The position numbers and the translations under genes are program-made. A DNA stretch of 6,232 bases from Deltaproteobacteria bacterium (GTDB lineage: Bacteria; Desulfobacterota_B; Binatia; UBA9968), in NCBI GenBank assembly GCA_022545745.1, contig JACZQL010000090.1, forward strand, positions 1-6,232, given 5' to 3'. Shown one piece after another: positions 5,944 through 6,232 of the stretch; within the stretch, counting starts at the first letter, position 1; every line of letters begins with the position of its first letter. Under the pieces are notes generated by a model. It worked only from the letters and a program-made list of their open reading frames with translations, did no database searches and had not been told where the DNA came from.

Positions 5944-6012
5944 ACTAATCTTGCCGGCGGCCGACAGACTACTTCCCCGAGCAGGGAAAGGACTCACCGT
6001 CAGAAGAAATTA

Positions 6013-6042
6013 ACCGCAGATTTACGCCGATTATCGCAGATA
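6013..6042. repeat. degenerate CCGCAGATT-type tandem repeat
   Basis: Three imperfect units follow each other: ACCGCAGATTT (6013-6023), ACGCCGATT (6024-6032) and ATCGCAGATA (6033-6042). They share the core CGCAGA or CGCCGA followed by T. From memory, CCGCAGATTACGCAGATT-like repeats are scattered between genes of many environmental bacteria, but I cannot confirm the family from this window. The core resembles the CGCAGAG units of the element that starts 15 bases further on. Confidence 0.55.
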
Positions 6043-6056
6043 AGGATTCGAACATT

Positions 6057-6084
6057 TCACCGCAGAGACGCAGAGTACGCTGAG
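6057..6084. repeat. left outer arm, three CGCAGAG-like units
   Basis: The arm starts TCACCGCAGAGACGCAGAG and divides into ACCGCAGAG (6059-6067), ACGCAGAG (6068-6075) and the diverged TACGCTGAG (6076-6084). It matches the reverse complement of the right arm at 24 of 28 positions. Confidence 0.7.
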
Positions 6085-6093
6085 GAAATCCCA

Positions 6094-6127
6094 TTTTGCC
6101 CAATCGGGAGACGACGATTGGGCAAAA
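6094..6127. repeat. inner hairpin 1, perfect 13-bp stem, 8-base loop
   Basis: TTTTGCCCAATCG (6094-6106) pairs perfectly with CGATTGGGCAAAA (6115-6127), enclosing the loop GGAGACGA (6107-6114). The 3' arm ends in A residues on the + strand, so this is not an ordinary intrinsic terminator for nuo transcripts. Its loop is the exact complement of the loop of hairpin 2. Confidence 0.85.
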
Positions 6128-6152
6128 ACTTTTAGCTCTAATTTGAGCAATG

Positions 6153-6186
6153 TTTTTGTTTGTCGTCGTCTCCCGACAAACAAAAA
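6153..6186. repeat. inner hairpin 2, perfect 13-bp stem, complementary loop
   Basis: TTTTTGTTTGTCG (6153-6165) pairs perfectly with CGACAAACAAAAA (6174-6186) around the loop TCGTCTCC (6166-6173). Read on the - strand, the core TCGGGAGACGACGA is identical to that of hairpin 1 (6104-6117), and the TTTTG/CAAAA edges are shared. The stem middle differs: TTTG/CAAA here, CCCAA/TTGGG in hairpin 1. Confidence 0.85.
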
Positions 6187-6193
6187 TTTAATT

Positions 6194-6221
6194 CTCTGCG
6201 CCCTCTGCGCCTCTGCGGTGA
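6194..6221. repeat. right outer arm, three inverted CTCTGCG-like units
   Basis: The units are CTCTGCGCC (6194-6202), CTCTGCGC (6203-6210) and CTCTGCGGT (6211-6219), followed by GA. This arm is more regular than the left one. It lies 11 bases from the end of the window, so any further copies on that side cannot be seen. Confidence 0.7.
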
Positions 6222-6232
6222 GTAAGTCTCAA

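Follow-up and report, generated by a model that had tools for sequence, protein, structure and literature searches.

Twin hairpins between inverted arrays suggest a bacterial mobile element of an undescribed kind, some longer copies of which carry a gene for a tiny, predicted Cas4-like nuclease

In miniature inverted-repeat transposable elements (MITEs) of classical DDE transposons, gene-less copies have the inverted ends of a longer, gene-bearing copy. Free-standing homing endonucleases are encoded by a lone nuclease gene between host genes, and REP-associated tyrosine transposases (RAYTs) have been proposed to move repetitive extragenic palindromes (REPs). According to passages of PMC3733652, palindromes of REPs and of REP doublets forming hairpins (REPINs) carry a GTAG or CGTC tetranucleotide at one end, and REP heterodimers with different stems or loops are common, their unlike partners having been suggested to escape SbcCD. 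Cas4 occurs alone as well as in mobile elements (PMC5704561, in excerpt). Here we describe an element at positions 6057-6221 of a 6,232-nucleotide stretch of Deltaproteobacteria bacterium DNA (contig JACZQL010000090.1; the whole stretch is called the window). Its twin hairpins form the two matching ends of a small DNA element scattered in several bacterial lineages. Our analysis suggests a bacterial mobile element of a type not yet described, some longer copies of which carry a gene for a tiny, predicted Cas4-like nuclease, GxxExxY (PF13366/TIGR04256, ~125 residues).

The element resembles REPs and REPINs in being a short extragenic hairpin found both singly and as inverted dimers (many REP dimers being heterodimeric, as the same passages of PMC3733652 state), in its patchy copy number and in its link to a single-domain DNA enzyme. 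It differs from them in its 13-bp stem, its conserved 8-nt loop and the arrays outside the hairpin, and its feet read GTAG in 2/131 and CGTC in 1/131 cases, below the ~4 of each expected from shuffled feet. No link to a RAYT was seen in the tested loci, and whereas a RAYT is a Y1 HUH enzyme, the protein linked to the element is a predicted PD-(D/E)XK nuclease. As in MITEs, gene-less and longer gene-bearing copies have common inverted ends, but these ends are short-period arrays plus structural hairpins, and the gene that they enclose is GxxExxY. GxxExxY resembles a homing endonuclease gene in being a lone nuclease-type gene between host genes, but homing genes are not known to us to have ends made of an array and a hairpin, or to leave gene-less copies behind. 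Solo and mobile-element Cas4 nucleases offer a parallel in fold: the best fold match of GxxExxY was SSO0001, which we take to be a Cas4. GxxExxY is nevertheless smaller, stands alone between inverted arrays and gave no significant match in a sequence search of the PDB. Other kinds of site were considered and dropped. Integron attC sites have GTTRRRY/RYYYAAC boxes, extrahelical bases and an integrase nearby, and the symmetric perfect stem argues against them. The geometry of loxP (13-bp arms, 8-bp spacer) fits a Cre/Flp-like site, but the element has variable arms around a conserved spacer. CsrA sites were likewise set aside.

A sequence-only reading of the window had described two perfect hairpins with 13-bp arms and 8-nt loops, the loops being exact reverse complements within a match of 14 bases. 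This description proved exact (hairpins A and B in Table 1). The window has no other perfect 13-bp/8-nt-loop hairpin, and a 14-bp inverted repeat (6104-6117/6163-6176) that includes the loops GGAGACGA and TCGTCTCC joins the two. No such hairpin occurred in 300 first-order Markov surrogates of the window, by which a chance origin of the pair was rejected. Folding of positions 6090-6190 as DNA gave the twin hairpins and a small third one (z -8.3), and folding of positions 6050-6232 as RNA instead gave a single long hairpin in which the cores pair with each other (z ~ -12 on either strand). Both hairpins are enclosed by an outer inverted repeat of 28 nt (6057-6084/6194-6221; 86% complementary) that is part of the same element and that the sequence-only reading had not noted.

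The pair was not a local accident. That alternative had been tied in advance to a lack of other copies or to unpaired stem middles, and copies with paired stems were found elsewhere both by R1, a covariance model built from the window's two hairpins, and by a search blind to pairing. Among 395 genomes from the phylum of one close relative, R1 matched 22 at E<=1, with E<=0.01 in 14 of them (best 1.7e-7) and at least two places in 11 (maximum 17); in the other eight the best E was >0.01, and matches near E = 1 may be chance. Two weak rows (L281 and L282) resemble a single coding region. In a smaller search 35 matches came from a single genome (G279), and the window together with 90 fetched loci gave 177. 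At the level of plain DNA similarity, the nearest eight genomes yielded short matches only (best E 0.054), and the strict array pattern was absent from the nuo loci of eight close relatives (L003-L010, of which the contigs of L009 and L010 stop inside nuoN). In viral contigs the core pair was met in one stretch, coding-like in appearance, and the 14-base core alone in at least 120 stretches. A search of plasmid DNA with the window element matched the arrays, no record covering 80% of the element, and megablast of one array-matching plasmid region returned only the region itself.

Because R1 scores pairing, the loci that it fetched are biased towards paired stems, and a clean test of covariation was therefore provided by the pairing-blind search, whose pattern consisted of two array units, 10-40 bases, CGGGAGACG and then open bases. 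This pattern matched 32 times, in 4 of the 395 genomes, and did not match when read backwards. Every one of the 24 matches listed had 11-13 of 13 Watson-Crick pairs. The 20 unique sites among them showed 16 different 5' arms and all reached ten pairs; the corresponding mean for re-dealt 3' arms of the same sites was 5.5, with a maximum of 11 in 500. In the fetched loci, which came mainly from the structure model, at least ten pairs were formed in 74 of 75 unique sites (96 in all) chosen by an array followed by CG[GA]GAGA. Stem positions 3-9 of the fetched-loci sites were paired in 89-99% (30-52% for re-dealt arms), each with three or four of the four pair types, and pairing dropped to 21-35% at positions 14-16. 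Sites within a genome are related, and these counts are not independent events. The compensated differences noticed in the two stem middles thus recur across copies, whose varied stems still pair.

Near-perfect stems of freely varying sequence would also be produced by template switching in quasi-palindromes, which recopies one arm from the other and mirrors every change by mutation alone, with no selection on pairing. Such arm-copying could be the mutational route by which stems change. Alone, however, it does not predict the sharp drop of pairing past position 13, the conservation of the loop and of the TTTT/AAAA foot, or the unlike stems within pairs described below, and we consider it improbable as an account of the pairing. 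As to what is selected, the sequence-only reading had proposed a folded single strand. Folding is indeed what is kept, be it as RNA or as DNA. The strong RNA folding and the intergenic placement after nuoN would suit hairpins that act as RNA under host selection, as terminators, mRNA stabilisers or RNase sites at operon 3' ends such as that of nuo. Broken stem pairs, however, were G-U in 9 and A-C in 16 cases, and since G-U was not above A-C there is no sign of selection on array-strand RNA. Furthermore, neither stem is directly followed by a long T run, the window contains no known RNA family (no Rfam family above its gathering score), and patchy copy number and absence from orthologous sites fit mobile DNA. 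An RNA role therefore has, in our view, a small chance of being correct.

The hairpins belong to units of fixed polarity. Of 128 unique sites, 93 had a short array (type ACC[G/A]CAGAG...) immediately before the hairpin, on its 5' side and in the same strand, and none had one 3' of it or on the other strand. Neighbouring units within 300 bp were convergent in 35 cases, tandem in 5 and divergent in none, in agreement with the expectation that cores come in inverted pairs. Because arrays sit 5' of hairpins and neighbours are convergent, the window holds a complete element of two facing units, and 6057-6221 is the whole of it. The loop conserved across the family reads CGGGAGACGRCG. The two stems of an element are unlike: in all 33 convergent pairs with 70 bases of flank (nine genomes, one of which supplies 16 pairs; copies are not independent, and the window pair is among those left out by the flank requirement) the six stem-middle positions differed at 3-6 places, whereas 10.7 near-equal pairs would be expected if partners were shuffled within genomes (minimum 3 in 1000). 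The loops within a pair also differed, at 1-3 of 8 positions in 33/33 pairs. A listing with shorter flanks contained 35 convergent pairs, and the loops were identical in two, the window and L269. Since the loops of a pair normally differ, the suggestion that complementary loops kiss loses support as a general rule; their exact complementarity is true of the window, which is exceptional in this respect.

Several arrangements depart from the two-unit form. Locus L327 (G275:C5:3800-12000) has eight array-hairpin units within 8 kb, all on one strand and without a convergent partner, and the units listed on contig C58 of the same genome are all on the strand opposite to them. A number of single units in L329-L340 (G275) have the same tail behind them, which ends in GTAGGTCGGGT and looks like a GTAG-tagged REP fused to the unit. 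The loops vary as well. In a second array family (CAGAC) a few hairpins have, by eye, a GACYT-like loop common to different stems, and in L353, L354 and L361, GxxExxY elements with CAGAG-type arrays have a different hairpin loop (TGAGAGG-like or its complement), which hints that loop types are specific to sub-families.

The element stands ~110 bases past the last stop of an operon that we take to be nuoJ-K-L-M-N (by recognition, no family search having been made). The closest relatives of its NuoN come from eight metagenome-assembled genomes (60-69% identity), of which seven are named Deltaproteobacteria and one is named Proteobacteria. A solo array of another unit type, which reads TAACCGCAGATTTACGCCGATTATCGCAGATAA and is probably a fragment of a related element, precedes the element by ~13 bases. 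Arrays like CGCAGATT also flank GxxExxY genes in L433 and L438.

Table 1. Positions of the element's parts and of the neighbouring array in the window
Feature	Position	Strand	Basis
Left terminal array, ACCGCAGAGACGCAGAG..., ~8-bp period; arm of outer inverted repeat	6057..6084	+	
Hairpin A, 13-bp stem ...CCCAATCG, loop GGAGACGA at 6107-6114	6094..6127	+	sequence, fold, family matches
Small central hairpin GCTC-TAATTT-GAGC, between both units	6135..6148	. (unassigned)	fold only
Hairpin B, 13-bp stem ...GTTTGTCG, loop motif of hairpin A on - strand, loop 6166-6173	6153..6186	-	
Right terminal array, inverted	6194..6221	-	outer inverted repeat
Solo array, other unit type (CGCAGATT..., ~10-bp period)	6011..6043	+	

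The arrays are strongly linked in position to GxxExxY genes. The linked proteins match the family above its curated cut-off, and their predicted fold and E...D...ExK...QxxxY residues fit a PD-(D/E)XK nuclease of the RecB/Cas4-like branch, which is the activity that we predict for GxxExxY. The gene was present in 18 of 44 mixed genomes, and one query for it drew at least 8000 candidates. Clustering of open reading frames over the 90 loci placed it next to hairpins in L267, L270, L272 and L307 (four genomes). The order in L307 (G490) is array, hairpin, GxxExxY, hairpin, array, and G490 also has gene-less copies with the same loop type; in L353 (G334) the gene likewise has a hairpin to either side. 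GxxExxY loci contained the strict array pattern in 12/30 cases (two of the 12, L374 and L380, overlap), Y1 loci in 0/30, chance loci in 0/30 and the much longer NuoN loci in 2/80. Inverted flanking repeats, counted when above all 100 shuffles, were found for 36/48 GxxExxY genes vs 3/118 controls. A first set, from which short-flank loci had been dropped (23/30 GxxExxY and 16/30 Y1 loci used), gave 17/23 GxxExxY genes vs 1/16 Y1_Tnp. The second set (25/30 GxxExxY loci, 54/80 NuoN loci and 48 shifted windows used) was taken from Calditrichota, Bacteroidota, Planctomycetota, Chloroflexi, Verrucomicrobia, Sumerlaeota and delta-proteobacterial genomes and gave 19/25, with 1/54 for NuoN and 1/48 for windows shifted within the same loci. 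By eye, the flanking repeats were mostly short-period arrays (8-10 bp) of many different units. Inverted arrays were also seen near GxxExxY in the three plasmid genes inspected of eight, those of Bacteroides finegoldii, Sphingomonas parapaucimobilis and Bernardetia.

The element might instead be moved by another enzyme, for instance a Y1/HUH transposase, with GxxExxY either riding along as a passenger or being an independent selfish gene that employs arrays of the same kind. Inverted hairpin dimers together with singles resemble REPINs, and among the 18 hairpin genomes Y1_Tnp was as frequent as PF13366 (15/18 each), so that presence alone tells nothing and position tells. By position, R1 had 27 matches in the 30 GxxExxY loci (a few places being counted on both strands), whereas arrays and hairpins alike were found in 0/30 of the Y1 loci examined (30 of 126 Y1 matches), and a RAYT partner is not supported. 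Moreover, G279 has its 35 hairpin matches and no Y1_Tnp match, and arrays flank GxxExxY in most cases. On the other side, PF13366 was not found in 3/18 hairpin genomes, and the only GxxExxY gene of each of the hairpin-rich genomes G275 and G279 is flanked by arrays of other units (CACGAAG in L357 and CACGGA in L364). Since neither of these two genomes showed a hairpin-type copy with a gene, we gave more weight to another enzyme, and less to GxxExxY, than we would otherwise have done; we still regard another enzyme as unlikely.

The distribution of copies fits a mobile element. They stand at unrelated sites and are patchy among relatives: R1 counts (E<=0.01) in 12 genomes of one family, whose completeness was not told, were 35, 16, 13, 7, 2, 1 and six zeros. 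Element-free sites were detected for two places in L292 (G279). At the first, >450 nt lie between flanking homologies that are 15-31 nt apart in G569, G574 and G571, and at the second the distance is 567-683 compared with 120-205 in G570 and G571. Another repeat of ~80 bp adjoins the twin-hairpin element in L292 (723-804); among the matches listed it occurs many times in G566 and G572 and once in G573. A gene-bearing example comes from Sphingomonas parapaucimobilis, where an arrayed GxxExxY gene lies between fabD and fabG as an array-gene-array copy of ~0.45 kb; S. paeninsulae has none there.

We propose that 6057-6221 represents an intact copy, MITE-like and non-autonomous, that its ends are recognised in the folded form of the DNA and that some of its longer relatives carry GxxExxY, and we put the probability of this reading at roughly 0.55. 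In single-stranded or supercoiled DNA the ends of the element would fold into hairpins. The enzyme would recognise the loop plus the fold, would find a second contact in the array, and would nick or cut, so that the element gets copied or moved. As the mover, GxxExxY would act in trans on gene-less copies, the window's among them as a client, through its predicted nuclease activity. Stem sequence would be free to change while pairing holds. Following the suggestion made for REP heterodimers, we infer that the stems of one element may be kept unlike because its ends would otherwise anneal into a long palindrome destroyed by hosts. The wider proposal, in which a large and so far undescribed superfamily of mobile elements is mobilised by GxxExxY proteins that act on array ends and, in some families, on folded hairpins, is more tentative, and we rate it at somewhat under an even chance.

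A number of observations weigh against the proposed reading. Junctions at the element-free sites are not exact, because the flanks are only 70-82% identical, and the compared loci gave no instance of transposition, of a target duplication or of an exact empty site. At L481, L482, L483 and L484, other relatives show unexplained length differences at the same places. R1 had no match, under strict filters, in 148 genomes from the class of one close relative. GxxExxY was not found among six close relatives, and its link to the element is read from genomes other than the window's host. R1-type hairpins stand on both sides of GxxExxY in G490 and G334 only, and on one side in G487. The lack of a gene-bearing hairpin-type copy in G275 and G279 belongs here too, as do the three hairpin genomes in which PF13366 was not found, although their completeness is not known and a few of the 18 were weakly matched. 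A flanking repeat was undetected in a quarter of the tested GxxExxY genes, and counted repeats in L352, L360, L365, L368 and L434 look like palindromes or AT-rich matches. Array similarity tracks protein similarity to a modest degree (r 0.28, 3 of 2000 permutations, 33 of 63 loci). With one gene per genome, 20 draws gave r 0.21-0.36 and at most 10 of 300 permutations as high; a one-strand version with 19 loci was not significant (r 0.14, 286 of 2000). Finally, a perfect stem of at least 8 adjoins 26/91 arrays of the CAGAC family (overlapping loci counted twice), and since most of these arrays have no adjacent hairpin, hairpins are a feature of some families only.

GxxExxY is widespread. In the open-access PubMed Central literature searched (subscription journals lay outside the search), excerpts mentioned the family in passing only, no role was given for it or for the flanking arrays, the link between the two was undescribed and the array sequences had no relevant mention. 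The link gives GxxExxY a testable function, that of a minimal Cas4-like nuclease acting on folding repeat ends. If the reading is true, these elements would be a kind of mobile element without a transposase of known class and a simple relative for understanding how nucleases of the Cas4 type came to be associated with mobile DNA, and part of the dispersed repeats in uncultured bacteria would be accounted for. On the wider proposal, the array-gene-array copies of ~0.45 kb would be among the smallest autonomous elements known to us, and much GCAGAG, CACAGAG, GCAAAG and CACGAAG repeat DNA of environmental bacteria would be the non-autonomous progeny of GxxExxY elements.
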